A stretch of 50,161 nucleotides of DNA from an uncultured Lachnospiraceae bacterium. GTDB taxonomy: Bacteria > Bacillota > Clostridia > Lachnospirales > Lachnospiraceae. The stretch lies in NCBI GenBank assembly GCA_947626435.1, contig CANQSB010000022.1, positions 1 to 50,161 of the forward strand. Reading direction: 5' to 3'. Both the position numbers and the translations under genes were made by a program. The notes beneath the pieces are model-generated. The model had not been told where the DNA came from. It worked only from the letters and a program-made list of their open reading frames with translations, and did no database searches. This document shows, piece by piece, positions 964 through 19,118 of the stretch (position 1 is the stretch's first letter; each line of letters begins with the position of its first letter).

Positions 964-1806
964 TTATATTATCCTAACGGCGTGGCGGTTTACGTGGCAG
1001 CATATGTTTACGGCTACGGGAAGCCCTGCTATATGGGTAGGGTATGTGTTTATGTTTACGGCTAATGCTGTAGTAACGCCTCCCAAGCCTCCCGGACCTA
1101 TGCCTGAATGATTTATTTTGTCGAGGAGTTCTTCTTCCATTTCTTTTATATATGGTATGGGAGAATGTTCGTTTATGGGGCGGGTGAGGGCTTGTTTTGC
1201 AATTAGCGCGCATTTTTCAAAGGTGCCGCCTATGCCTACTCCTACTACCATTGGGGGGCAGGCGTTGGGACCTGCGTCTTTTACGGCTGTGATGACAGCG
1301 TTTTTTACGCCTTCTATGCCATCGGCGGGCTTTAGCATGAATACGCGGCTCATATTTTCACTTCCAAAACCTTTGGGAGCTGCGGTTATTTTTACTTTGT
1401 CGCCTTCTGTTATGTCGTAATGAACAATGGCGGGGGTGTTATCCTTGGTATTTTCACGCAGCAGAGGATCTTTTACTACTGATTTGCGAAGATACCCTTC
1501 TGTGTAGCCCTGACGGACTCCTTCGTTTATTGCGTCGAAAAGGCTGCCGCCTTCAAAATGCACGTCCTGTCCTACTTCCATAAAAATCACTGCCATTCCT
1601 GTGTCCTGGCAGATTGGAATCATGTCCTCGCCTGCTATTTTAAGATTCTCCTGAAGCTGGCAGAGGATTTGCCTACCGAGGGGGCTTTTTTCTGTGTCTG
1701 TTGCCTTTTTTAAGGCGTCTTCCATATCGGATGTAAGGTAATGGTTTGCCTCTATGCACATTTCCTTTATGTTTTTTGTAATTTCTGCGACGTTTATGGT
1801 TCTCAT
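964..1806 (-). CDS. fumA: Class I fumarate hydratase, alpha (N-terminal) subunit
   Basis: This is the catalytic Fe-S subunit of the two-subunit class I fumarase (fumarate + H2O to malate). The 280-residue length is typical. Cys66 in CQDTG, Cys183 in NACPPM and Cys269/270 near the C-terminus fall at roughly the spacing of the three cluster cysteines of single-chain class I fumarases (about 119 and 94 residues apart in E. coli FumA). GIGGTFEKCA (191-200) and SGIGPGGLGG (234-243) are family blocks. The gene starts 16 nt after the ybaK-like stop, so the two are probably co-transcribed. A structured repeat separates it from fumB. The presence of an oxygen-labile fumarase fits an anaerobe. Confidence 0.93.
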   Translation of the reverse strand: MRTINVAEITKNIKEMCIEANHYLTSDMEDALKKATDTEKSPLGRQILCQLQENLKIAGEDMIPICQDTGMAVIFMEVGQDVHFEGGSLFDAINEGVRQGYTEGYLRKSVVKDPLLRENTKDNTPAIVHYDITEGDKVKITAAPKGFGSENMSRVFMLKPADGIEGVKNAVITAVKDAGPNACPPMVVGVGIGGTFEKCALIAKQALTRPINEHSPIPYIKEMEEELLDKINHSGIGPGGLGGVTTALAVNINTYPTHIAGLPVAVNICCHVNRHAVRII

Positions 1807-1822
1807 TTATTTTGTCCTTTCG

Positions 1823-2311
1823 TTATTTTGACATTATTATATCGGCGAACTCTGCCTGCGCGGCTTTTGCCAAATCCTGCGGGGAAAGCTCAAGCTGAGT
1901 GCCTATTCTGCCGCCGCTTACTATTATTTTTTCCAAGAACCGAGCGCTTTGCTCTATGCGGGTGGGATAGGACTTTTTCATTCCTATGGCTGTGCAACCG
2001 CCTCTGATATAGCCTGTGACGGCGTTTATGTCCTTTACGTGAAGCATTGAGACTGATTTTTCGGAGACGGATTTCGCGGCTTTTTTCAGGTCAAGTTCTT
2101 CGGCTATGGGGATTACAAAGACGTAATAATTTCTGCTGCTGCCCTGTGTTACGAGCGTCTTGTACACTTTTTCGTGGGGAAGCCCCAGCATGTCCGCAAT
2201 CTGTATGCCGTCTATAAATTCGTCACATTCGTAGGTGTGGGTTATATATGGGATTTTCTGTGTGTCCAGTATGCGCATTGCGTTTGTTTTGATTTCCTTT
2301 TGTTTTGCCAC
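1823..2311 (-). CDS. ybaK: YbaK/EbsC-type aminoacyl-tRNA deacylase (Cys-tRNA(Pro) editing)
   Basis: This cytoplasmic editing enzyme removes mischarged cysteine (or related amino acids) from tRNA-Pro. The family is recognised from the INXXAXRXLD-type N-terminus (TNAMRILD), the DMLGLPHEKVYKTLV block, the basic patch, and the VTGYIRGGCTAIGMKK signature with the catalytic-site GGC. The start is set to the GTG at 2311. AAAGGAG lies 10 nt upstream of it, and a consensus promoter (2346-2374) lies just beyond that. A longer in-frame reading from 2425 would begin upstream of the promoter and has no ribosome site. The resulting 162 residues match the family length. The gene leads a likely ybaK-fumA-fumB operon. 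Confidence 0.88.
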   Translation of the reverse strand: MAKQKEIKTNAMRILDTQKIPYITHTYECDEFIDGIQIADMLGLPHEKVYKTLVTQGSSRNYYVFVIPIAEELDLKKAAKSVSEKSVSMLHVKDINAVTGYIRGGCTAIGMKKSYPTRIEQSARFLEKIIVSGGRIGTQLELSPQDLAKAAQAEFADIIMSK

Positions 2312-2345
2312 GTCTTTGATGCTCCTTTTTGTCTGATTGTTTTTT

Positions 2346-2374
2346 ATTATAGCAAGGCTTGGCGGATAATTCAA
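2346..2374 (-). promoter_or_regulatory. sigma-A promoter for ybaK-fumA-fumB
   Basis: On the minus strand, -35 TTGAAT (2374-2369), a 17-nt spacer and -10 TATAAT (2351-2346). The -35 overlaps the stop region of the upstream gene. The predicted transcript starts near 2339, 28 nt before the GTG of the deacylase, and this decides that start codon. Confidence 0.75.
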
Positions 2375-2940
2375 CCTGTTTTGGAGGTGTCTTTTGTGAC
2401 TTTTGTGAATCCCCATGAGTTCCAAATCCAGCAGCTTATGTTTCCTGATAAATCGGTTAAAAACAAGCGGTCAGTTACTATCATGGCTGATACGTTCTGT
2501 CCGATATATGATGACATCCATTTTGGCTTGATTTTGCCCGCATTTAGGGAATAGATAAATATGTGCTGTGACCACTGCTTTTCGTCTTTTTTTATCCAAA
2601 ACGGTTTGTTTTCGCCAAAACGCCCTACTTTCCAGCAGAGAAGTATCAGCTCGTCACTGCCGTCTTTGTCTATGTCGGCAAAAGCGGCTGACTGTACTTT
2701 TATGTTTAAGGGCGAGGTCCATATGACATTTGTGTCATAATTCAGTGTGACCTTTTTGCGCTTTAACGTTGCTTTGTATTCGTGTGACGTGTCTGATAAT
2801 GCTGAATTTTCCCAATTAATCCAGCGCGGCAGAAGGCAGCCGCCGTTCCAGAGCAGGTATAATATTCCTGAAACGGCGACTGCTGTTATAACCAGTGTTA
2901 TTGAGGCTGATATTATTTTCTTGCGTTTATTACCATTCAT
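2371..2940 (-). CDS. Membrane-anchored protein with a calcium-binding-like FG-GAP/VCBS segment
   Basis: This 189-residue protein of unknown function has a short basic N-terminus and a single membrane segment at about residues 9-31, then an exported domain. Residues 89-97 read DIDKDGSDE, an EF-hand/dockerin-like DxDxDG loop of the kind found in FG-GAP/VCBS repeat proteins. It is preceded by VQSAAF and followed by LILLCW, as in one beta-propeller blade. The start codon overlaps the end of the upstream DUF3160 gene by 11 nt (ATGAATGGTAA), so translation is probably coupled and the two products likely act together at the cell surface. The fold assignment is an inference from one motif. Confidence 0.7.
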   Translation of the reverse strand: MNGNKRKKIISASITLVITAVAVSGILYLLWNGGCLLPRWINWENSALSDTSHEYKATLKRKKVTLNYDTNVIWTSPLNIKVQSAAFADIDKDGSDELILLCWKVGRFGENKPFWIKKDEKQWSQHIFIYSLNAGKIKPKWMSSYIGQNVSAMIVTDRLFLTDLSGNISCWIWNSWGFTKVTKDTSKTG

Positions 2941-5161
2941 ATTTTAATCTGTAGCTTTCTGTCCAGCTGGGCTTTTGAATTGACGAGTCAATTGAATAGC
3001 TGCCGTCTTCCCCGGGATTTATTCCCATCATCTGACGCCATTTTGCGTCTGTCAGTCTGTCGTCCATAGGCCATGCAAACTGATAGAAGGAGTACACGCT
3101 GCCTCTGGCGATTTTGAGCTTGCCGTCTACCTTCACTATTACATATATATATGAAGGGTTGTCTGTGGCGACTTCAAGGACTTCTCCACTGCCAGGGTTT
3201 GTCGCAATATCCACTACTATCGCGGCGGGACATTCCTGTGTGTACACGTATTCTCCGCCAGTCTGGTCTTTTACGGTTTCTGTCCAGAAGTGCTCTATGC
3301 TGCCGCCGTATGACTTGATAAATTCATACTCGTCGTCTGTAAGGTTCTCCTCCTGAAGCTCTTTTTTGGAAATTTCAAGGAGCATGTCAGCCATTTGTGA
3401 CAGTAGTGTCAGATTTTCTTCGTCAGTCTGGGACAAAATATTGTATGCTTTTAACCCCGACAGGGTTTTGTCGGAGAGCTCGGCAAAGCGGGCGTAAACC
3501 AAAGGCTCGGGCTCGACATAGCCTCTGTCGTCAGGCTCCTGCTGCCATCCGCCGCCGCCCATTTCGGCTATTATCTGCTTTGAATACAGGACTGTATCGT
3601 GTTTTAGCTCGGCAAAGCTGCCTGCGAAGCACTCCAAATCCTTTTTCAGCCATTCCTCGCTTTGCATAAACATTGGATAGCCTTCGCCCTTTGGCTCGAG
3701 CAGCGGGCGCAGGGTGTCAAGCCAGCAAGAATAAAGGCTTGCCGACCATAGTGCTGTGTTGTCGCCTGCAAAGTATGTTTTAAGCTTGTCCATATTCTCA
3801 GAATAATTTTGATAGTCGGCGGCTCCATTTTCATTCAGGATATTGAGCGCTGTGCTGCTGCCAAGAGCGGCGGGCACGTCAAGAGTGTCGGGAAACATCC
3901 GCTTTTCGCCTTGGCTGTTTTCTGCTACTTCGCTGTATATGAGACGCTGCATAATCGCCGCGTCGATTGTGAAACGCTGTCCCATAAAGCGGAAGCCTCG
4001 GATTGTGTTGTCTTCGCCTTGCCCTATTGGTATTGAATTTATATGCGGAAGCGGAAGGGTTGCGGTTTGTTTGTGGAAACGCTCAAATGCCTTGTCGTCT
4101 GAAATGAGCGTGTCTACTGTGGCGTCTTTGCCATATGCGTCCTCCAGTGCCTGCATATATTCATTTACGCCTAAATCGTCGCTTGCTCCTGCAAAAAATG
4201 AGGTGGTTTCATAAATGGCCTTCCACAAATCGTATGATGCCCTGTCCTCTGAAAGCATCAGCACTGTCAGGCAGGCGCATTTGTCCATTTCTTCGTCTTC
4301 CTGCCTGAAATGTATTCTGCCGTACCACATCATTGCCTTGAAATATTGTTCAAGCTGCCTGTCGCCCTCGTAATAGCCGCGCGGAATGTATTGCGTGTAG
4401 TCCTCAAAATCGCCTGTTATGCGGGATTCTTTTATGCCCTCGTGCGCATTTATGCTGTCAAGCTCGGCTGTGACTATGTCCTGCGCTCCCTCGTATATCT
4501 CCGCGCTGTCGTCGAGGAGTTTCAGCGCGACGTTGAAAAAGGCGGCGTCCTTTTGTGCGGCGTTTTCCCATTGGGTGTCTTTTAGCTTTTCGCAGGCTTT
4601 TATGCTGTTGTCAAGCATTTGGCTGCTTAATTGCTTTAAGCTGTCTGCGAGGTAATTTTTTTCTGTGTTTTTCATCAAGTAGCTGAAATATAAGTGGTAT
4701 GTGTGCATTAAGGAATCGACTGTTATAAAGCTTGCAATTTGGTCATAGCGGTTGTATTCGTATACCTCAAAAAATTCGCTGCTTTGATTGCATACCATAA
4801 AGCTGTTTTTGGCAAGCAGCTCCTTTTGTTTATCGTCGAGGTATTCAAACTGCCACAGATTGTCGATATTGCTCAGATCCGGCTCTACCGTGTAGGGTGT
4901 TATGCCGGGATTGACGTTTGTGTTTCTGATGTCTACGGTTGAGCTGTAAGTAAATGATGTTTGGTATAGGTCTTGGGCTTCTGTTTGAGTGGATTCTTGG
5001 CGTTCGGTCGCTGTGGCATCGTCTGATTCTGAGTCTGATTGAGTGGGATTAGTTTGAATTTGCGGCAGAGTTTGGTTGTCCTCCAGACGAACGCCGCAGT
5101 AGCATAGCGTGCTTACTATCAGACTGATTAATGTAAGGGTTTTGGCTGTTTTTTTCATCAT
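2930..5161 (-). CDS. DUF3160 family exported protein
   Basis: This 743-residue secreted or surface protein has a basic, hydrophobic N-terminal export signal (residues 1-21). A Ser/Thr/Glu/Gln-rich linker runs to about residue 75, and a long DUF3160 domain follows. The family signature is visible at about residues 120-165 (FMVCNQSSEFFEVYEYNRY, then ITVDSLMHTYHLYFSYLMK). The signal ends in LCYC, but a strict lipobox (small residue before Cys) is not clear, so lipidation is uncertain. Two ATGs stand at the start. The first, with AAGAAAGG 10 nt upstream, is used here. No enzymatic function is established for this family. It is followed, with overlap, by the 189-residue FG-GAP-like protein. Confidence 0.8.
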   Translation of the reverse strand: MMKKTAKTLTLISLIVSTLCYCGVRLEDNQTLPQIQTNPTQSDSESDDATATERQESTQTEAQDLYQTSFTYSSTVDIRNTNVNPGITPYTVEPDLSNIDNLWQFEYLDDKQKELLAKNSFMVCNQSSEFFEVYEYNRYDQIASFITVDSLMHTYHLYFSYLMKNTEKNYLADSLKQLSSQMLDNSIKACEKLKDTQWENAAQKDAAFFNVALKLLDDSAEIYEGAQDIVTAELDSINAHEGIKESRITGDFEDYTQYIPRGYYEGDRQLEQYFKAMMWYGRIHFRQEDEEMDKCACLTVLMLSEDRASYDLWKAIYETTSFFAGASDDLGVNEYMQALEDAYGKDATVDTLISDDKAFERFHKQTATLPLPHINSIPIGQGEDNTIRGFRFMGQRFTIDAAIMQRLIYSEVAENSQGEKRMFPDTLDVPAALGSSTALNILNENGAADYQNYSENMDKLKTYFAGDNTALWSASLYSCWLDTLRPLLEPKGEGYPMFMQSEEWLKKDLECFAGSFAELKHDTVLYSKQIIAEMGGGGWQQEPDDRGYVEPEPLVYARFAELSDKTLSGLKAYNILSQTDEENLTLLSQMADMLLEISKKELQEENLTDDEYEFIKSYGGSIEHFWTETVKDQTGGEYVYTQECPAAIVVDIATNPGSGEVLEVATDNPSYIYVIVKVDGKLKIARGSVYSFYQFAWPMDDRLTDAKWRQMMGINPGEDGSYSIDSSIQKPSWTESYRLKYEW

Positions 5162-6884: not shown

Positions 6885-7850
6885 TCAGCTTATCACGAAC
6901 CAAACCACCGCCGCTGAAATCATTATCTGGATTATCGCGAACTTGAATACTGTCTGCGCGTTTGACCATTTACGGTTTTTACGGACATGGTCGTGGAGAG
7001 GAGTTCTTACTTTGGTGAGTATTTTTATTTTTAGGAAGCGAAGGAGGGCTACCTTTACAAGCCCTATGCCACCGTCCACCATGAGCACAAAGGCTACGAG
7101 CACATAGAGGAACGGGCTTCCCGTCTTCATAATGGCTATCGCTATGAACAAGCCTATCGCGCGCGAGCCCGCGTCACCCATCATAAGGCAGCTTGGCGTG
7201 GCGTTAAACCACAGATATCCCAGTATGCATGCTATAAACAGTAGGATAAGATAGGAAAAATCCGATGCCGTGTCCCAAGAGGTCATTATTAAGTATATCG
7301 TCGCGAGGGTGATTGTCGCAAGCGTACCTGAAAGCCCGTCTACGCCGTCGGCGCAGTTTGTCACGTTTATTGACGCCCATACGAGAATTACCGCGAGCGC
7401 TCCGTAAACTAACGGGTGCAGGTGGATTGTGGCTCCTGTGAGAGCTATATATACGTCGCTGCCATTGAAGTTGACTACCGTGATGGCTGTCATTATGGCA
7501 ATTACCAGGTCGAGGAGACCTTTGCGCAGCTCGCCCCAGGAAACCTTTGCGCAATCGTCGAGAAATCCCGTCATCATTGCGGCTACGGTGAGTATGAGGT
7601 ATATGATTATTTCTCTTTCAAGATTGCCGAATATCAGTGTCGCGGCGACAAATACCAGGATGAATATGAAACCCGCCCCGCGCGGTTTGCCTGCTGAAAG
7701 GATGCCGTCGTGGGCATAGGCGCGTCCATGGTCGCGCGGGAGCTTGTTTATGCCTGTGCCAAGCAGCAGGCAGGTGGCAACATATGCGAAAGCTACTCCC
7801 AGAAAGCCTAATATGCTGTAATCTGAAACAGTTAGATAATTATTAATCAT
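6885..7850 (-). CDS. mraY: MraY-like phospho-N-acetylmuramoyl-pentapeptide transferase
   Basis: This polytopic membrane enzyme of the MraY/WecA family transfers a phospho-sugar from UDP to undecaprenyl phosphate. In MraY this is the first membrane step of peptidoglycan synthesis (lipid I). The 321 residues hold about ten membrane segments and the family motifs: GFLDDCAKV (95-103, the Mg-binding DD), NVTNCADGVDGLSG (162-175), MGDAGSR (224-230) and PLHDH (284-288). The last is a variant of the HHH loop that separates MraY from WecA. No other dcw-cluster gene is nearby. It lies 42 nt behind a heterodimeric ABC exporter on the same strand, so it may be a second or accessory copy. The R-like relic G lies just before its start. 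Confidence 0.85.
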   Translation of the reverse strand: MINNYLTVSDYSILGFLGVAFAYVATCLLLGTGINKLPRDHGRAYAHDGILSAGKPRGAGFIFILVFVAATLIFGNLEREIIIYLILTVAAMMTGFLDDCAKVSWGELRKGLLDLVIAIMTAITVVNFNGSDVYIALTGATIHLHPLVYGALAVILVWASINVTNCADGVDGLSGTLATITLATIYLIMTSWDTASDFSYLILLFIACILGYLWFNATPSCLMMGDAGSRAIGLFIAIAIMKTGSPFLYVLVAFVLMVDGGIGLVKVALLRFLKIKILTKVRTPLHDHVRKNRKWSNAQTVFKFAIIQIMISAAVVWFVIS

Positions 7851-7871
7851 TTCATCACTCTCCTTTTATTT

Positions 7872-7892
7872 TATGGGTAATTACGAAACGGG
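7872..7892 (-). repeat. Possible R element right-end relic G
   Basis: On the plus strand GGGTAATTACGAAAC resembles the outer right end of the R elements (TTAGGTAATTGCGAAAT). It lies in the 42-bp gap between the ABC gene and mraY, 22 nt from the mraY start and in the same orientation to the downstream gene as the full copies. The match is short, so it is only a possible member. Confidence 0.35.
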
Positions 7893-9665
7893 CTAAAACT
7901 GGCTTTGGTACAGGTTTGCGTAGAAGCCGTTTTCTTTTGAGATGAGTTCGTCGTGGCTGCCCTGTTCTATGATGTTGCCGTCTTTCATGACGAGGATTAT
8001 GTCGGCTTCCCTTATGGTGGAAAGTCTGTGGGCCACTATGAAGCTTGTTCTCCCTTTCATCATGGTGTTAAAGGCTTGGGAGATTTTTATTTCGGTGCGC
8101 GTGTCTATTGATGAGGTCGCTTCGTCGAGTATCAGCATGGGAGGAAGGCAGAGCATTACGCGCGTGATGCACAGGAGCTGCTTTTGTCCCTGTGAAAGGC
8201 TGCCGCCGTCTTCTGTGATTACGGTGTCATAGCCCATTGGCAGACGCTTTATGAAGCTGTGGGCGTGCGCGGCGCGAGCGGCGGCTATCACTTCGTCGTC
8301 GGTGGCGTCGGGCTTGCCCATTACTATATTTTCGCGGATTGTGCCTGCGTGCAGCCATGTTTCCTGCAAAACCATGCCGAAGCTGTCGCGGAGGCTCTTG
8401 CGGGTAATGCTTCTTATGTCCGTGCCGTCTATTTTGATGCTGCCGTCATTTACGTCGTAAAAACGCATCAGGAGATTTATGACCGTGGTTTTGCCGCAGC
8501 CTGTAGGTCCTACGATTGCCACGCGCTGCCCTTTTTTCACATTGAGGTTAAAGCTTTGTATAAGCTTCTGCTCGGGGTTGTATGAGAAGCTAACATTGTC
8601 CATATTTACCGCGCCCTGCGTGTCGGTCAGGATAACGGCATCGGGACTGTCGGAGATTTGAGGCTCCTCTTCTATAAATTCAAATACTCTGCCTGCGCAC
8701 GCAAGCGCGGTCTGGAGCTCGGTGATTACTCCGGATATTTCGTTGAATGGCTTCGTATACTGGTTGGCGTAGCTCAAAAAGCTTGTGAGCTGTCCTACGC
8801 TTATGCGCCCCGTTATCGCAAAAAACGCGCCCATTACGCCTACTCCCGCATAAACAAGGCTGTTGACAAAGCGCGTACAGGGATTGGTGAGTGATGAAAA
8901 AAATATCGCTTTTACGCTTGCATTTTGGAGCCGTCCGTTGATTTCGTCAAACTGCCCGATTATCTTCTTTTCGCGTCCAAACGCCTTTACTACTTTTTGA
9001 TTGTCTATTATTTCATTGATGAGCGATGTCTGCTCGCCTCTTATCTCAGACTGGAGCTTTGACATGTTGAAGGTTCTTTTGGCGATAAAGCCTGCTATAA
9101 AAAATGACAGTGGTGTCAGTATTACTACGACTATTGTAGTGGAAACATTGATTGAAAGCATAAACAGCAAGGTGCCGACTATAGTGGCTACTCCTGTAAA
9201 TAGCTGTGTAAAGCCCATGAGCAGACCGTCGGAGAACTGGTCCACGTCCGCTATTATGCGGCTTACTATATCTCCATGCGAATGGCTGTCAATGTATTTC
9301 AGCGGAAGGATTTCGAGCTTCTCAAATGCTTCCTGGCGCACGTCACGCACGACCTGATATGCGATTTTGTTGTTGCTGGTATTCATGAGCCACTGGACAA
9401 TCGCCGTTATAAGGATTACTATCGCCATTGTTTTAAGGATTGCAAATAATTCCGTAAAGTTGACTTTGCCCGCGCCAACTATGCAGTCTACCGCCCTGCC
9501 CGTCAGTATAGGAATATATAAAGTCAGCACTACGGAAGCCGCTGCCATTAAAATCGAAAACAACAGGTAAAATTTGTATTTCCCTATATGAAATAATACG
9601 GTTTTTATTATGTTTTTATTCATGCCTGTGCCTTGATTAATATTTTTTATTCCCGTTTTCTGCAT
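7893..9665 (-). CDS. Heterodimeric ABC exporter subunit with intact catalytic site (TM288/BmrD-like)
   Basis: This 590-residue ABC exporter half-transporter has six membrane helices (about residues 30-310) and a nucleotide-binding domain. Walker A GPTGCGKTT is at about 386-394, the Q-loop at VLQETW, Walker B LILDEATSS at about 511-519 with the catalytic Glu, and the switch His in AHRLS at about 546. The ABC signature is LSQGQ (490-494) rather than LSGGQ, as in subunits that contribute the degenerate half-site. The start is the ATG at 9665, with GGAGG 6 nt upstream. A longer reading from 9737 has no ribosome site. It pairs with the gene ending at 9762. The substrate is not evident (drug, lipid or peptide export are all possible). 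Confidence 0.88.
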   Translation of the reverse strand: MQKTGIKNINQGTGMNKNIIKTVLFHIGKYKFYLLFSILMAAASVVLTLYIPILTGRAVDCIVGAGKVNFTELFAILKTMAIVILITAIVQWLMNTSNNKIAYQVVRDVRQEAFEKLEILPLKYIDSHSHGDIVSRIIADVDQFSDGLLMGFTQLFTGVATIVGTLLFMLSINVSTTIVVVILTPLSFFIAGFIAKRTFNMSKLQSEIRGEQTSLINEIIDNQKVVKAFGREKKIIGQFDEINGRLQNASVKAIFFSSLTNPCTRFVNSLVYAGVGVMGAFFAITGRISVGQLTSFLSYANQYTKPFNEISGVITELQTALACAGRVFEFIEEEPQISDSPDAVILTDTQGAVNMDNVSFSYNPEQKLIQSFNLNVKKGQRVAIVGPTGCGKTTVINLLMRFYDVNDGSIKIDGTDIRSITRKSLRDSFGMVLQETWLHAGTIRENIVMGKPDATDDEVIAAARAAHAHSFIKRLPMGYDTVITEDGGSLSQGQKQLLCITRVMLCLPPMLILDEATSSIDTRTEIKISQAFNTMMKGRTSFIVAHRLSTIREADIILVMKDGNIIEQGSHDELISKENGFYANLYQSQF

Positions 9666-11802: not shown

Positions 11803-13497
11803 ATGGCAAGGACTGTCGGAATCGGTATTCAGGATTTTGAGACGATTATCAAGAGCAACTGCTTTTATATTGATAAGACTGCTTTTATAAAGGAATGGTG
11901 GGAGGGCTGCGACAACGTTACACTTATCACGCGCCCGAGGCGTTTTGGCAAGACGCTTACTATAAGTATGCTTGAAAAGTTTTTTTCCATAAAATATGTG
12001 GGACGGGGCGATTTGTTTGAGGGGCTTTCCATATGGAATGAACAAAAATACCGCGAGCTACAGGGCGCTTATCCTGTTATCAGCCTGAGTTTTGCCAATG
12101 TCAAGGAGGTTTCATATCCAAATACAGTTTACCGTATATGCGAACTGCTAAAAAAGCTTTTCGAGCAAAATCGGTTTCTTCTTGACTGCCCACTTTTGTC
12201 AAGGCAGGAAAAGGAATACTACGAAAGAATGACGGGAGAAATGACGGAGCTTGACGCACCTACGGCAATCAACCAGTTGTGTGATTTTTTGCACAGATAT
12301 TATGGAAAAAATGTTATAATCCTGCTTGACGAGTATGATACGCCTATGCAGGAGGCATATGTCGGCGGATTTTGGAATGAGCTTGTCGCTTTTACCAGAA
12401 GTTTGTTCAACTCCACCTTTAAAACCAATCAATGGCTTGAGCGCGGCATTATGACCGGCATAACCAGAGTTAGTAAGGAGTCAGTATTTTCGGATTTGAA
12501 CAATCTAAAGGTTGTAACCACTACCTCAAATGAATACGCTGGCGCATTTGGGTTTACGGAAGGCGAAGTATTTGCGGCAATGGATGAATATGGGCTTGAT
12601 AAGAAGGAAAATGTCAAATTTTGGTATGACGGTTTTACCTTTGGGAATACGCACGATATATATAATCCTTGGTCAATAATAAATTATCTGGATACCCAAA
12701 AATTTAACACCTACTGGGCAAATACCAGCTCAAACAGTCTTGTTTCAAAGCTGCTACAGAGCGCCGAGGCTGAAATCAAAGAGGAGTTTAATGGGCTGCT
12801 GTTGGGTAAGTCTGTGGTGAGTGAGATTGATGAGCAGATTGTATATAACCAGCTTGACAGTACAAGGGACAGCATTTGGAGCTTCCTGCTTGCAAGCGGG
12901 TATCTGAAAATATTGAATGTGGAGGACTTTGAGGAAATCGGCTTTGAGGAATGGAAGCAACCGCGCTATGAGCTGGCGCTCACAAACTTTGAAGTGCGCT
13001 GTATGTTTGAAAATATGATTAAAAACTGGTTTGCTCCTGCGGCATCCTCGTACAGCCGCTTTATAAAGGCAATGTTTGTTGGAGACATTGAAGCCATGAA
13101 TGAATACATGGGCAGAATGACGCGGGCGGTGTTCAGCTTTTTTGATGTGCCGAAAAGTGATTCGCCTGAACCCGAGCGTTTTTATCATGGCTTTGTGCTT
13201 GGTCTTCTGGTGGAGCTGCGGGAAAAATACAAGGTCACATCAAACCGCGAAAGCGGCTTTGGGCGGTATGATATCATGCTTGAGCCAAAAAATTCATCTG
13301 ATATCGCTGTAATCATTGAGTTTAAGATATATAATGCAAGACGTGATGCCTCACTTGAGGACACTGTTAGGTCGGCATTGCAGCAGATAGCGGATAAGAA
13401 ATATGAGCAGGCGCTCCTTGAAAGCGGTATTTCTGCTGAAAATATACGCAAGTATGGGTTTGCGTTTTGTGGTAAGGAAGTGTTGATTGGAGTATGA
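11803..13497 (+). CDS. AAA-ATPase-like / PD-(D/E)XK nuclease-like protein (PF09820 + PF08011), paralog 1
   Basis: This 564-residue two-domain protein belongs to a family hugely expanded in gut Clostridia and Bacteroidetes, with no proved function. The N-terminal AAA-like domain has a P-loop RPRRFGKT (44-51) and Walker B VIILLDEYD (about 171-179), followed by ITRVSKESVFSDLNN as a sensor-like block. The C-terminal domain carries a PD-(D/E)XK arrangement: GRYDIML at about 487-493 and IIEFK at about 504-508. GGAGG is 9 nt before the ATG. A paralog of the same layout lies at 31441-33147 on the other strand. Mobile-element, defence or toxin roles have been suggested for relatives. None is shown here. 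Confidence 0.85.
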   Translation: MARTVGIGIQDFETIIKSNCFYIDKTAFIKEWWEGCDNVTLITRPRRFGKTLTISMLEKFFSIKYVGRGDLFEGLSIWNEQKYRELQGAYPVISLSFANVKEVSYPNTVYRICELLKKLFEQNRFLLDCPLLSRQEKEYYERMTGEMTELDAPTAINQLCDFLHRYYGKNVIILLDEYDTPMQEAYVGGFWNELVAFTRSLFNSTFKTNQWLERGIMTGITRVSKESVFSDLNNLKVVTTTSNEYAGAFGFTEGEVFAAMDEYGLDKKENVKFWYDGFTFGNTHDIYNPWSIINYLDTQKFNTYWANTSSNSLVSKLLQSAEAEIKEEFNGLLLGKSVVSEIDEQIVYNQLDSTRDSIWSFLLASGYLKILNVEDFEEIGFEEWKQPRYELALTNFEVRCMFENMIKNWFAPAASSYSRFIKAMFVGDIEAMNEYMGRMTRAVFSFFDVPKSDSPEPERFYHGFVLGLLVELREKYKVTSNRESGFGRYDIMLEPKNSSDIAVIIEFKIYNARRDASLEDTVRSALQQIADKKYEQALLESGISAENIRKYGFAFCGKEVLIGV

Positions 13498-13568: not shown

Positions 13569-13901
13569 TCATATAATAGAAAAACCCTGTCGAAGAATGG
13601 AAGTCCAGTTACATTTTTGATAGAAAAAACGTACTACAATTACTGTCTGTTTATCCTCATCAACTGTGTAAAAAGCAAGATAATTACTTACCGTTATAAA
13701 ACGAATTCCCCAACCAGCTAAAACAGGATCATCCACGAGATGAAACCTTTGCGGCATGTCAGACAGGGAATTGATTTGCTCAGTTACGGCATCCAACAGA
13801 TTATTTGCGGCACTGGGATTTTTGAGGGTAAATTCTATATAATCTGCGGCGTGTATAATGTCGCGTTCTGCCATGAAAGTGATATGAATTTGGCAGCTCA
13901 T
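13569..13901 (-). CDS. RelE/ParE-family toxin
   Basis: This 110-residue protein of the RelE/ParE superfamily would be the toxin half of a type II module. Relatives are either ribosome-dependent mRNA interferases or gyrase poisons. The sequence shows the family fold order: an alpha pair with AERDIIHAADYIEF and AANNLLDAVTEQINSLSDMPQRF, then beta strands with GIRFITVSNYLAFYTVDE and VIVVRFFYQK. It overlaps the antitoxin by 4 nt, which is typical of such operons. RelE and ParE types cannot be told apart from motif reading alone. Confidence 0.85.
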   Translation of the reverse strand: MSCQIHITFMAERDIIHAADYIEFTLKNPSAANNLLDAVTEQINSLSDMPQRFHLVDDPVLAGWGIRFITVSNYLAFYTVDEDKQTVIVVRFFYQKCNWTSILRQGFSII

Positions 13902-14161
13902 TTTTGGCGATGGCTCCTAATGTCTGCCATGGCTTCAGAAAATGGTCTGGTATTGCCTGATGCAATATCATCTAGTCCTTCTTTAAGCTGGCTGTATAAA
14001 TCAAATCGACCGATTAATTCTTCATAGGCTTCAATACTCATAACAGCAAGGTCGCCTTTTCCATTCTTCGTAATAAAAACCGGTTCAGGATAATTGTGGC
14101 AGAATGTAGATATTTCATTGTAATTATTCCTTAAATCAGCGCTTGATCTAATCGCTGGCAT
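13898..14161 (-). CDS. Phd/YefM-family antitoxin
   Basis: This 87-residue DNA-binding antitoxin of the Phd/YefM type autoregulates the operon and neutralises the toxin. IRSSADLRNNYNEISTFC is the N-terminal Phd-like segment, and PVFITKNGKGDLAVMSIEAYE is the characteristic second block. The C-terminal part would wrap the toxin. The start is the ATG at 14161, with GGAGG 7 nt upstream. A longer in-frame reading to 14200 would run into the promoter -10 and is rejected. It is first in the two-gene operon. Confidence 0.88.
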   Translation of the reverse strand: MPAIRSSADLRNNYNEISTFCHNYPEPVFITKNGKGDLAVMSIEAYEELIGRFDLYSQLKEGLDDIASGNTRPFSEAMADIRSHRQK

Positions 14162-14191
14162 AAAACCACCTCCTGCTTGGATAGTAACAAA

Positions 14192-14220
14192 ATTATACAC
14201 AAATTTTAATATGAAGTCAA
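14192..14220 (-). promoter_or_regulatory. sigma-A promoter for the antitoxin-toxin operon
   Basis: On the minus strand, -35 TTGACT (14220-14215), a 17-nt spacer and -10 TATAAT (14197-14192). It lies 31 nt upstream of the antitoxin ATG. Confidence 0.75.
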
Positions 14221-14603: not shown

Positions 14604-16178
14604 TTAGCCGAGTAATGAAAGTACACCCTGATTTGACTGGTTAGCCTGTGCAAGCATTGACTGACCTGCCTGTGAAAGGATGTTGTTGTTAGAGTATCTA
14701 ACCATTTCATCAGCCATGTCTGTGTCACGGATTGCTGACTCTGCAGATGTCGTGTTCTCTACAATGTTATCCAAGTTCTTGATTGTATGCTCAAGTCTGT
14801 TCTGGACTGCACCGAGAGCTGAACGCTGCGTAGATACTTTCTGTAATGCCTCTGCAATAACATCAATAGCGTCTGTAGCCTTAGCGCCTGAATCGTCTAC
14901 CATTCCTGCCTCTGAGCTCTTAAGCACGTTAATGCCGAGGCTTGTTGCTGACATAGACTGGATTCTTGTCGTAATCTTGTTTGTAGCTGTAGAGTCTGCG
15001 CCTACATGAAGGCTGAATGTCAAATCGTCTGCAACCATTGAACTTGACTTATTGACATATTTACTTATCGTCGTACTATTAACTGCTATTGCTTTATTAC
15101 CTTGATTGTCATCATAGAGACCGCCCTTGTATATGCCAAACTCGTTGAAATACTCTCTAAGCTTAACGCCTGATACCTTATTGCCTTCTGCGTCATAAAG
15201 CTGGTACTCTGATATATCAGTTTCTACCTTTAACTTATTTACCTTATCACCTGTCATCTCGTCAAGAAGCACATAGCCATCCTTCATTTCCTGATATTTT
15301 GTCTTCCCACTATTTGCTTTATCAACTTCAACGTTCTGCAAGTATTTAGACAAATCCTTACCTTTAGCAATCTTAATTACTTGATTGTTTTCTTTGTCCC
15401 AAATATAAGTATCACCATTTCTTGTAATATTTCCATTATCAGCATCTATAGTTAACTGCTGATTATTTATTGATGTTGTTGCAGTTGTAAACGCTGTGTA
15501 TTTAGTCGTATCTATTCCTGCTTCCTTAGCGCCATTTACCCCCGATGCTAAATACTTGGTAACGTCCTCACCCTTACTTATAGAGTTTGATACAGCCTTT
15601 CCTTCATTGCTTACACTTTTGATAGTTGATGATGTAATTATAAGAGCTTTTGTGTCATTATAGTTAAACTTAGATTTAACTGTTTTCTGATTGCTTCCAA
15701 GGTTCTTTGTGTATGTAACTGTGTAGCTCTCTGTATATACAGTCTTGCCGCTTCCATCCGGCTTACCCTTTAACAGATATGTCTCATTGAACTTACTTGT
15801 CTCTGCTACACGGTCTATCTCTGTTACAAGCTGATCAATCTCGTCCTGAATATACTGGCGGTCTGTAGTAGAGTTTGTACCATTTGCTGACTGTACTGCA
15901 AGCTCATTCATTCTCTGAAGCATATCGTGTACTTCCTGTAGAGCGCCTTCTGCTGTCTGTACAGATGAGATACCGTCCTCAGCGTTTGCAGAAGCTTGAG
16001 TAAGTCCTCTAATTTGTTTTCTCATTTTTTCAGATATAGCCAAACCTGCTGCATTATCAGCCGCGCGGTTGATCTTGTAGCCTGAAGAAAGCTTCTCTGT
16101 AGAGTTTGATAATGTTCCCTGTGTGATGCCTAAAAGCCTGTTAGAGTTCATTGCCTGTAAATTGTGCTGTATTACCAT
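14604..16178 (-). CDS. fliC: Flagellin
   Basis: This 524-residue filament protein is exported by the flagellar type III apparatus and polymerised outside the cell. The N-terminal D0/D1 segment (MVIQHNLQAMNSNRLLG through about residue 140) and the C-terminal segment (about 420-524, ending ANQSNQGVLSLLG) are classical. The middle (about 145-400) is a variable, surface-exposed insert. Residues 87-100 (LQRMNELAVQSANG) match the D1 motif known as the TLR5 recognition site in other flagellins. AAGGAGG is 7 nt before the ATG. The gene follows csrA on the same strand with a 249-nt gap. Upstream of csrA lies the recombinase segment with an outward-facing sigma-28 promoter, so expression is probably orientation-dependent. 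Confidence 0.97.
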   Translation of the reverse strand: MVIQHNLQAMNSNRLLGITQGTLSNSTEKLSSGYKINRAADNAAGLAISEKMRKQIRGLTQASANAEDGISSVQTAEGALQEVHDMLQRMNELAVQSANGTNSTTDRQYIQDEIDQLVTEIDRVAETSKFNETYLLKGKPDGSGKTVYTESYTVTYTKNLGSNQKTVKSKFNYNDTKALIITSSTIKSVSNEGKAVSNSISKGEDVTKYLASGVNGAKEAGIDTTKYTAFTTATTSINNQQLTIDADNGNITRNGDTYIWDKENNQVIKIAKGKDLSKYLQNVEVDKANSGKTKYQEMKDGYVLLDEMTGDKVNKLKVETDISEYQLYDAEGNKVSGVKLREYFNEFGIYKGGLYDDNQGNKAIAVNSTTISKYVNKSSSMVADDLTFSLHVGADSTATNKITTRIQSMSATSLGINVLKSSEAGMVDDSGAKATDAIDVIAEALQKVSTQRSALGAVQNRLEHTIKNLDNIVENTTSAESAIRDTDMADEMVRYSNNNILSQAGQSMLAQANQSNQGVLSLLG

Positions 16179-16427: not shown

Positions 16428-16685
16428 TTATCGCAATTCCTGTGTATGATTTGACGGTACTGCCTCGCCTGCAGCTTTTTCTGCTGCTGCCTGCTCTGCC
16501 TCCGCTGCGGCTTTTGCAGCCCTTTTTATTGCACGCTTCTGAATAGCTCTGCCTCTTGCTATATTCACGTCTCTGGGGGCGTCTATCATTACGCGAAGCT
16601 GGTTGTTGTTGCCGCCGAGGAATGTAATCCTGACATCCTTTCCTATCATCAGATACTCTTCCTTGGGTACTGTAAGCATTAGCAT
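16428..16685 (-). CDS. csrA: Divergent CsrA-family RNA-binding regulator
   Basis: This 85-residue protein has a full CsrA core (MLMLT, then YLMIGKDVRITFLG, NQLRVMIDAPRDVNIAR). CsrA homodimers bind GGA motifs near ribosome sites and in Gram-positive bacteria repress flagellin translation, countered by FliW. Aligned with E. coli CsrA, Arg44 and Arg31 are kept. The RNA-contacting Arg6-Arg7 are replaced by Val-Pro, and the His43-Arg44-Glu45-Glu46 segment reads Ala-Arg-Gly-Arg. The Ala/Lys-rich C-terminal tail (about 50-78) is longer than usual. RNA binding may therefore be altered. AAGGAGG precedes the ATG. The gene lies between the invertible-type segment and fliC and would be co-transcribed with fliC. 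Confidence 0.85.
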   Translation of the reverse strand: MLMLTVPKEEYLMIGKDVRITFLGGNNNQLRVMIDAPRDVNIARGRAIQKRAIKRAAKAAAEAEQAAAEKAAGEAVPSNHTQELR

Positions 16686-16766: not shown

Positions 16767-16798
16767 AAATGCAACTTTTTAGATAAAATGTTGCATTT
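16767..16798 (+). repeat. Left inverted repeat of the recombinase segment (IRL)
   Basis: This 32-bp near-palindrome has arms AAATGCAACTTTTTA and TAAAATGTTGCATTT around a central GA. The other copy (17688-17719) is in inverted orientation and differs at one base (position 10, T here and A there). The identity stops exactly at the 32 bp on both sides. Confidence 0.88.
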
Positions 16799-16825
16799 GA
16801 TATTTGTCGCAAAACAATTTATTAT
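16797..16825 (+). promoter_or_regulatory. sigma-A promoter for the recombinase
   Basis: -35 TTGATA (16797-16802, overlapping the last two bases of the left inverted repeat), a 17-nt spacer and -10 TATTAT (16820-16825). It lies inside the segment, so recombinase expression would not depend on orientation. Confidence 0.6.
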
Positions 16826-16874
16826 TAAAGAAAGGAAATCTGACGAAAGGAAACGTTTAGAGAAGGGAATAATT

Positions 16875-17465
16875 ATGAGTACAATGTCGCCTATAAAGGA
16901 CAAAAAAGAGCTGGAAGCTATGAAAAAATATTTTTTGAAGAAAAACGAGATAAGAAATTATGCGCTGTTCTGCGTCGGAATTAATACCGCACTGCGCATA
17001 AGCGATATTTTAAAGCTGCGCTGGAAAGATGTGTATGACTTTGACAGCCATTCATTTAAAAAGCACTTGAAGATTAAAGAACAGAAAACAAAGAAAAATA
17101 ACGAAATACTTTTAAACAAGGGGGTAATTAACGCGTTAAAAAGGCTGCTCGCATACTGTAACAGAAGCCATACGCCGATAAACGGAGATGATTTTATATT
17201 CACAGGCGGAAAAAACAGGAACAAGCCGCTGAGCCGCTCACAGGCATACCGCATTATAAACGGCGCTGCCAAAGCACTTAAAATAGAGGGAAATATTGGC
17301 TGCCATTCGCTTAGGAAAACCTTTGGCTACTTTGCGGCGAGGAGCGGCATTTCCTCTGTATTGCTCATGCATATCTACAACCATTCATCATTTCCGATAA
17401 CAAGACGCTATCTGGGGATAGACCAGGATGAGTGTGATGAGGTGTTCATGAAGATTGCGCTTTAG
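16875..17465 (+). CDS. Single-domain tyrosine recombinase (FimB/FimE-like DNA invertase)
   Basis: This 196-residue phage-integrase-family recombinase has only the catalytic domain and a short N-terminus, close to the size of FimB (200) and FimE (198), which flip the fimbrial promoter in E. coli. The catalytic set is complete: Arg41 (TALRISD), a Lys in the KIKEQKTKK beta-hairpin (about 66-74), His144 and Arg147 (HSLRKTF), His170 (IYNHSS) and the nucleophile Tyr179 (TRRYLG). The start is the ATG at 16875, with AGAAGGG 8 nt upstream. A longer in-frame reading to 16698 would cross the left inverted repeat and the promoter. It lies between 32-bp inverted repeats, next to csrA-flagellin, and has its own terminator. 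It most likely acts on those repeats. Confidence 0.88.
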   Translation: MSTMSPIKDKKELEAMKKYFLKKNEIRNYALFCVGINTALRISDILKLRWKDVYDFDSHSFKKHLKIKEQKTKKNNEILLNKGVINALKRLLAYCNRSHTPINGDDFIFTGGKNRNKPLSRSQAYRIINGAAKALKIEGNIGCHSLRKTFGYFAARSGISSVLLMHIYNHSSFPITRRYLGIDQDECDEVFMKIAL

Positions 17466-17532
17466 CTCAGGCAGCTTCAGCCGCATAATTCCGGATATTC
17501 AAATATAATACTTTTTTGATTTTAAACGTCTT

Positions 17533-17554
17533 ATGGCATAACTATGCCTTTTTT
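17533..17554 (+). terminator. Terminator of the recombinase gene
   Basis: A short hairpin, GGCAT (17535-17539) with ATGCC (17544-17548), followed directly by six T. It lies between the recombinase and the sigma-28 promoter, so the outer inverted repeat is not needed as a terminator. Confidence 0.6.
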
Positions 17555-17631
17555 CACGCAATTTCTGGTCATTCATAATGTACTTAAAAGTTATTTGCCT
17601 TAAATTTAAAAAAATTTTTTCAAATAAGGGG

Positions 17632-17658
17632 TAAAGTATTTTAAACAATAACCGATAT
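17632..17658 (+). promoter_or_regulatory. sigma-28 (SigD/FliA) flagellar promoter, pointing away from flagellin
   Basis: TAAAGTAT (17632-17639), an 11-nt spacer and ACCGATAT (17651-17658), against the consensus TAAAGTTT-N11-GCCGATAA: 7/8 and 6/8 with exact spacing. The transcript would start near 17665 and run through the right inverted repeat toward the terminator at 17822-17858. If the segment inverted, the same promoter would face csrA-fliC. Confidence 0.72.
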
Positions 17659-17687
17659 ACAGAGTGTAAGAACAAAAACATCGCTAA

Positions 17688-17719
17688 AAATGCAACATTT
17701 TATCTAAAATGTTGCATTT
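17688..17719 (-). repeat. Right inverted repeat of the recombinase segment (IRR)
   Basis: A 32-bp perfect palindrome except for its 2-bp centre: arms AAATGCAACATTTTA and TAAAATGTTGCATTT, centre GA when read on the minus strand. It is the inverted partner of 16767-16798. The centre is the only asymmetric part, and it matches only in the inverted alignment. That favours inversion over deletion. Confidence 0.88.
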
Positions 17720-17821
17720 TTTATATGCGCTAATTGCCTAGCTGTTTTTTACCTATATTTTTGCCATTTCATTATAGATTATAGCAGAAAAACGCTAAAA
17801 TTGGGAAACGCAAATAAAACA

Positions 17822-18960: not shown

Positions 18961-18999
18961 CGCGCGCTAAAATATTTTCTTTATCCTGCGCGCAAAGTA

Positions 19000-19008
19000 T
19001 GATATAAT
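19000..19008 (+). promoter_or_regulatory. Extended -10 promoter for thrH
   Basis: TGATATAAT, a perfect -10 (19003-19008) preceded by an extended TG. The -35 region is poor. It lies about 110 nt before the thrH start. Confidence 0.45.
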
Positions 19009-19118
19009 AGCGGAGAAGCGATGAGGTAATCGCGGCGCGGTTAGGCTTGCATGCACACGTCCAAGCTTTTAACCTTACATATTATTATACAAAAAGACGT
19101 GAGCAGATGGAGGAAATT

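Follow-up and report, generated by a model that had tools for sequence, protein, structure and literature searches.

A probable self-contained flagellin switch with its own tyrosine recombinase, present as an array of loci in an uncultured Lachnospiraceae bacterium

In Salmonella, the Hin recombinase gene and a flagellin-operon promoter lie inside one invertible segment (hixL, hixR, fljBA; excerpts of PMC9368917), and the part of PMC2784873 dealing with hin likewise locates the gene within the inverted DNA. The locus analyzed here is nearest to this system in behaviour but does not belong to the Hin family: its recombinase also lies inside the flipped segment beside a flagellin gene, but the enzyme is a Phage_integrase-type protein with R-H-R-H-Y residues. 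Hin is a serine recombinase. The Salmonella H segment is of similar size. Salmonella carries one such switch whereas seven were found here, and the second gene of the Salmonella operon, fljA, acts on the other flagellin gene whereas the first gene of the operon here is csrA. A preliminary description of this DNA had presented the recombinase inside the flipped DNA as a contrast with known tyrosine-recombinase switches; the placement stands, but hin, a known counterpart of the serine type, had been missed.

Other described switches share single features with this locus. The E. coli fim switch (FimB/FimE) combines a small tyrosine recombinase with a promoter in the inverted segment (as summarized in PMC2784873), but its recombinases are encoded beside the flipped DNA, not within it, and its target is fimbriae. 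Invertible DNA and a tyrosine recombinase, RecV, also underlie the flagellar and cwpV switches of Clostridioides difficile in the sections of PMC5386303 and PMC2784873 that treat them, and in the first of these the target is flagella as well. However, RecV acts in trans from elsewhere in the genome (same section of PMC5386303), the segments of 154 and 195 bp given there are too short for the RecV gene, and the flagellar switch takes effect once transcription has begun and on the early flagellar operon, not on flagellin alleles. The cwpV OFF state has been modelled as an intrinsic terminator (PMC2784873, in the portion on cwpV), which is a precedent for the OFF state proposed below, but the cwpV promoter is placed there outside the segment. 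Bacteroides fragilis Mpi, as portrayed in part of PMC5386303, serves many scattered switches for surface variants; there a single recombinase acts on all of them, whereas here each switch has one. Among the literature matches listed (titles and abstract starts, open-licence, preprints excluded) the present arrangement was not described.

The segment and its copies

The window, meaning the whole 50,161-nucleotide stretch that was analyzed, corresponds to contig 22 in a draft genome of 3.70 Mb and 98 contigs. Its relevant features are as follows.

14604-16178, minus strand: fliC, encoding a flagellin of 524 aa, the putative switch target (Flagellin_N/C Pfam matches)
16428-16685, minus strand: csrA, leading gene of the putative switched operon (PF02599, E 1.4e-16)
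16767-16798, no strand: left recombination site, csrA side, near-palindrome
16780-16787, plus strand: 8-bp centre TAGATAAA of the left site, proposed strand-exchange overlap (no mismatch there in 33/33 pairs)
16839-16861, plus strand: hairpin in the recombinase-mRNA leader, its loop containing GGA, a putative CsrA site
16875-17465, plus strand: tyrosine recombinase, 196 aa, catalytic domain only (Phage_integrase, E 1.1e-26)
17632-17659, plus strand: sigma-28-type promoter, TAAA-N16-CCGATATA, directed away from csrA (OFF)
17688-17719, no strand: right recombination site on the far side, a near-palindrome predicted to fold as an RNA hairpin of -13.7 kcal/mol
17699-17706, minus strand: 8-bp centre of the right site, reading TAGATAAA on the minus strand
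17717-17722, plus strand: T-tract at and just past the outer edge of the right site, terminator-like together with the site in OFF

The segment 16767-17719 (953 bp) is bounded by two 32-bp inverted near-palindromes that are complementary at 31 of 32 positions (97%) over a spacing of 889 nt, in agreement with the one-base difference described earlier. Each had also been called a palindrome with a 2-nt centre, which is true of the right site with its perfect arms, while the left site has one arm mismatch. The arms read ATGCAAC/GTTGCAT. Because the 2-nt centres, GA on the left and TC on the right, are mutually inverted, the pair is inverted and not direct. A single gene is enclosed, as reported before, and the remaining ORFs between the repeats are only short or overlapping.

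The enclosed gene had been described as a 196-residue tyrosine recombinase with all catalytic residues, and both the Phage_integrase match and a residue check bear this out (R41, H144, R147, H170 and Y179, in the pattern R..HxxR..H..Y), which places the protein in the tyrosine recombinase family. The nearest solved chain by sequence is XerA (5hxy), with query residues 15-190 on chain residues 144-309. The protein matches the NCBIfam models PRK09870 and PRK09871 (tyrosine-type DNA invertase), which we take to be FimE and FimB, only weakly, and it falls far below the curated cut-offs of the FimB/FimE invertase family (44.9 of 221 bits and 35.1 of 222 bits, respectively). The enzyme is presumably catalytically active in this strain.

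The switch is much as first described, but it is one of seven loci in the draft genome, which the preliminary description had missed. Six are complete and one is cut by a contig end. In every complete locus the recombinase lies within its site pair and adjoins csrA-flagellin genes transcribed away from the recombinase; the seventh csrA-flagellin locus, at the end of contig 5, begins precisely with a site. The recombinase is represented by six copies in all, which share 69-100% identity with that of the window. Of the eight csrA genes in the genome, seven belong to the switch loci and the eighth is on contig 16, where it stands beside the sole fliW found in the genome and an unswitched flagellin. 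The six switched flagellins that were aligned (the interrupted flagellin of contig 20 was left out) are 85-98% identical over their first 140 residues and 80-97% over their last 90, but in the middle 13 of 15 comparisons give 21-35% identity, the exceptions being 41% and 52%. The middle is the part of a flagellin expected to be surface-exposed.

Some further features were noted around these loci. The contig-20 flagellin (L020, about 7767-9282) is in two reading frames, split near residue 52, and could represent either a pseudogene or a misassembly. Closely similar AAA-ATPase/PD-(D/E)XK genes (MARTVGIGIQDFETIIK...) adjoin three of the seven switched flagellin loci (window 11803-13497; L017 2499-4190; L021 2223-3923), and genes for a ParE-type toxin and a Phd/YefM-type antitoxin lie downstream of the window flagellin (13569-14200).

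We read the segment, at a probability of roughly 0.88, as an invertible promoter switch with its own recombinase, belonging to a seven-locus repertoire of phase-variable flagellins; confidence that it is an invertible promoter switch is high, and the conserved, self-contained switch and its occurrence as an array are real. The 196-aa recombinase would join the two inverted sites through a central overlap of about 6-8 bp and flip the 953 bp. In the ON orientation the internal sigma-28-type promoter would read into csrA-fliC, whereas in the OFF orientation, that of the window, the promoter would point outward and its transcripts would be stopped by the site hairpin and the T-tract in the flank. 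The seven switches and the unswitched flagellin locus with its similar promoter would together form the repertoire, and CsrA made from ON loci may repress the recombinases through the leader hairpin. Gut Lachnospiraceae flagellins are targets of host immunity, and the reason for the many flagellin genes in these bacteria is poorly explained. If this reading is true, flipping would change which flagellar surface protein is made, and a self-contained switch array would be a mechanism of flagellar variation in commensals and a tyrosine-recombinase counterpart of the Hin system.

Orientation in relatives and the recombination sites

Inversion had been proposed in the preliminary description, which looked to related genomes for the flipped form and named a single orientation in all relatives, or repeats not kept along with the recombinase, as evidence against it. 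Neither was observed. Sixty genomes including the source genome were searched, of which 49 had some recombinase match, many of them distant, and flipped forms in which the element is opposite to csrA-fliC were found at two loci (L075 and L177). The first is on contig 14 of a genome placed in the same genus (G028), where recombinase, promoter, site, csrA and fliC follow in order on one strand. When this ON locus was aligned with the OFF locus on contig 10 of the present genome (G000, L017), csrA-fliC and the stretch beyond matched on the minus strand (L017 4283-6409, 86%; also 1676-4183, 88%) whereas the site-to-site segment matched on the opposite, plus strand (L017 6380-7355, 84%). The outer-arm variant TATGCAAC is on the csrA side in both orientations, consistent with a precise flip. 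Beyond about 20 bases, no homology was seen between the far flank of this flipped locus and that of contig 10, so synteny is limited to the csrA-fliC side. The second ON locus (L177) is in a genome of another family (G223) that also has three complete OFF loci; its recombinase, site, csrA and fliC are in line, with a promoter-like sequence recognized by eye.

The orientation count started from 42 recombinases already beside csrA or flagellin, of which L116, L189 and L137 gave no pair by the anchor test although repeats are visible there; for L177 the csrA side was assigned manually. Among the 39 loci with a site pair and a known side, 37 are OFF and two are ON. ON loci make up one of seven readable loci in G028 (one of them read from the flank only), one of four complete loci in G223 and none of the six complete loci here. 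Both orientations thus occur between related genomes only, and the flipped relatives, along with the matched site centres described below, are what is expected of an invertible switch; inversion in this strain is probable. The exact start of contig 5 at a site is only suggestive of mixed orientation in the population, and contig ends near sites were rejected as proof of it because the copies are repeats and can break assemblies. Three other candidates did not enter the ON count: L171, with flagellin in line downstream, had no site of the switch kind; L172, with a downstream promoter motif in line, had no switch site and only an unrelated 14-base repeat; and at L173 csrA-flagellin is further off and there is no site pair.

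The preponderance of OFF loci could mean that flipping is rare, or that it has been lost at many of them. If it had been lost generally, the loci would be locked relics with inactive recombinases and palindromes that now serve only as terminators, and a decayed locus (L088) does exist. Against this stand the two ON forms in two families, the matched centres that are kept while diverging between loci, and the recombinases themselves, all six of which are intact (the other five are 69-89% identical to the window copy) and evolve under purifying selection, with dN/dS near 0.1 (0.07-0.16 in 13 of 15 comparisons, those estimable). Locked relics are therefore improbable.

A functioning switch makes a further prediction on the sites: if strands are exchanged through a matching overlap, the centres within a pair should be matched. 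Recombinases above 43% identity were found at 41 places, and 33 of them yielded a site pair (the eight others being L070, L079, L083, L088, L089, L107, L108 and L109). The best-matching pair with no fewer than 22 identical bases out of 30 was taken, a choice biased towards matched pairs in general and not specifically towards matched centres. The 8-bp centres were identical within the pair in all 33, with 26 distinct centres overall: positions 13-20 of the aligned 30-mer had zero within-pair differences, whereas between pairs seven of these eight positions vary, in up to 73% of comparisons. Random re-pairing, in which a site could also draw its own partner, gave on average 1.5 identical pairs and at most 8 in 20,000 shuffles. 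Recent duplication does not suffice to explain the matched centres, since the outer arms show differences within pairs. Within-pair mismatches fall from 5/33 at position 12 to 0/33 at position 13, which suggests the outer edge of the strand-exchange region; the inner edge is blurred because the inner arms also match well, and by symmetry the overlap would be 6 bp, at 16780-16785 in the left site. Over ten positions per arm, 52 within-pair mismatches are in outer arms and 12 in inner arms, a difference that could reflect unequal half-site strength.

The sites might instead serve mainly for recombination between loci, shuffling flagellin cassettes or promoters, rather than for local inversion. 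The arms are near-identical at all loci, and one centre is shared by the loci on contigs 22 and 38 and another pair of loci shares one in G028, so the idea that shared centres are avoided within a genome is not supported. But most centres differ between loci of one genome (six among the seven here) and each of the six complete loci keeps a matched inverted pair, making inter-locus exchange a quite improbable main role. With its differing centres, the array would also be a natural set of recombinase sites suited to orthogonality tests.

The distribution of sites bears on a third alternative. The 32-bp pattern with up to three mismatches occurs at 10 places in the whole genome, all adjoining csrA-flagellin, and at none in a reversed control, so its occurrence is no chance. 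A looser 28-bp pattern found 17 places, namely 13 switch sites and four in a different repeated sequence that is coding where checked (L192). That the segment is a small IS-like mobile element with a tyrosine recombinase and palindromic ends, near flagellins by chance, is very improbable, for although six similar copies with terminal repeats lie at different places in one genome, no insertions at unrelated places were seen (13/13 switch-type sites are at csrA-flagellin loci), all seven loci are equally placed relative to a csrA-fliC pair duplicated along with them, the divergence and low dN/dS of the copies do not fit recent insertions, the inverted sites point to inversion rather than excision, and the internal promoter motif is conserved.

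The decayed switch L088 (5364-6359) retains one site, the first residues of its recombinase are unmatched, and a C-terminal piece of flagellin lies just beyond; no csrA or flagellin N-terminal match was found in the 11.5 kb covered. A 19-kb contig of G223 (L191) has switch ends at both termini (1-268 and 18979-19037), with matching inverted centres and similar flanks, which suggests further loci cut by assembly.

Transcription signals and a possible CsrA circuit

The preliminary description, which placed the recombinase's own promoter in the segment, had not singled out the sigma-28-type promoter at 17632-17659, the part that would be switched. This sequence, TAAAGTATTTTAAACAATAACCGATATA, is inside the segment near the far-side repeat and agrees in form with the sigma-28 consensus given for Butyrivibrio fibrisolvens in a passage of PMC3720852, TAAA(N16-17)MCGATAa. 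A sigma-28-type motif is at the equivalent position in all six complete switches of the genome, and the unswitched flagellin of contig 16 is preceded by a similar motif, TAAAGTATTAACGATAAGAGCCGATA, at a distance of about 230 bases. In the G223 switches no promoter next to the recombinases was picked up by the motif script, and sequences with ACGATATA were seen by eye at the corresponding place. Plain motif counting was uninformative: a loose sigma-28 pattern showed no enrichment genome-wide (61 against 60 in a reversed control), and the case for the promoter thus rests on position and conservation. Additionally, the gap from csrA to the left site, about 80 bases in the window and about 35 in one contig-19 copy, leaves scant space for another promoter. 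By motif and position there is thus a promoter between inverted repeats, as in an inverton, and it is presumably active; in the window it is directed outward from csrA-fliC, which is the OFF state.

An outward transcript would meet the far-side site, and in the six complete loci here these sites are predicted to form RNA hairpins of -11.9 to -13.7 kcal/mol. The eight bases past the site contain a mean of 5.8 T on the far side and 1.6 on the csrA side, and the far side is richer in 39/39 loci (Wilcoxon p 3.7e-8, for loci that are not independent). T richness is strongest in the first bases past the far-side site: with distance the T fraction declines from 0.72 to 0.47, 0.38 and then 0.33-0.36 beyond 40 bases, in a profile with sides set by hand (L075 and L177 as ON, all others as OFF). 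Of the 39 loci, 27 have a longer unbroken T-run directly past the site on the far side than on the csrA side and 12 have runs of equal length, so the tract in the more distant group is T-rich and not pure T. The tract belongs to the flank, as it stays on the far side in both ON loci. With the tract fixed there, the promoter in OFF would meet a hairpin and a U-tract, whereas in ON it would meet a hairpin only, and with moderate confidence the site may be a one-way terminator that acts in OFF only. A terminator inside the segment had been reported earlier; this is the right repeat itself, but the T-run continues outside the segment.

The leader of the recombinase mRNA may carry a second control element. 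The preferred target of CsrA is a GGA within a hairpin loop of six bases, and from there the protein can also bridge to another GGA at the ribosome site, as set out for glgC in part of PMC7652899. In the leaders of the window group a short stem closes an AAGGAA-type loop, with GGA 24-27 bases before the start codon, while more distant leaders have a different stem and a similar loop type. A short hairpin with GGA in its loop thus precedes the ribosome site, as in CsrA-regulated mRNAs. The CsrA-repressed glgC leader described in that part of PMC7652899 is alike in having a hairpin-loop GGA and, further downstream, another site at the ribosome-binding sequence, but here the mRNA encodes a recombinase, csrA is within the switched operon and the CsrA site is putative.

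Thirty-seven recombinase leaders of at least 60 nt were compared with 127 control leaders. A strict GGA hairpin was present in 21/37 against 4/127, by a rule set post hoc and with leaders that are not independent; one of the four control leaders was that of the unswitched flagellin. A looser score was passed by 26/37 leaders, against 5.9 expected from shuffles of the same leaders, and the hairpin was absent even at this score from 11/37. However, 46/127 controls also passed, and the looser score was rejected as evidence, so the argument is carried by the strict form and by covariation. Covariation was scored on 15 of 18 distinct leader windows anchored on the loop motif, omitting L081, L093 and L094, which were shifted by the aligner. 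In these 15 windows 88.3% of cells are paired, a value reached by 0/500 shuffles, as is the covariation score, which sliding the partner lowers from 0.724 to at most 0.393. Both-side changes occur in all four stem pairs, though their count is not unusual (171/500 shuffles reach it). Since the switched operon begins with csrA, feedback by CsrA on the recombinases through this hairpin is plausible, with low to moderate confidence. If it occurs, flagellin homeostasis would be linked to DNA inversion.

These elements could be joined into one antigenic-variation circuit of local exchange, one-way terminators and a CsrA lock on flipping, although we consider this doubtful. The recombinases would use the arms common to all loci, and the locus-specific centre would keep exchange mostly local. 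OFF loci would be silent, and an ON locus would read through because of the T-tract in the far flank. CsrA from the canonical locus and from the ON switched locus would repress the recombinase mRNAs, so that in a cell settled on one flagellin variant further flipping would stop. The orientation data are compatible with such a circuit but do not prove it, and confidence that it yields one flagellin variant at a time is low to moderate.

Similar recombinases of other genera (L174 and L179-L188) gave no csrA or flagellin match in the search applied and were left out of the counts. Multi-copy relatives among them (L180, L182 and L184, and L179, L181 and L183 at contig ends) have no csrA or flagellin matches nearby; the latter three contigs end 33-45 bases before the gene, and L182 and L184 are beside large proteins with signal-peptide-like starts. 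These multi-copy relatives may switch other surface genes.
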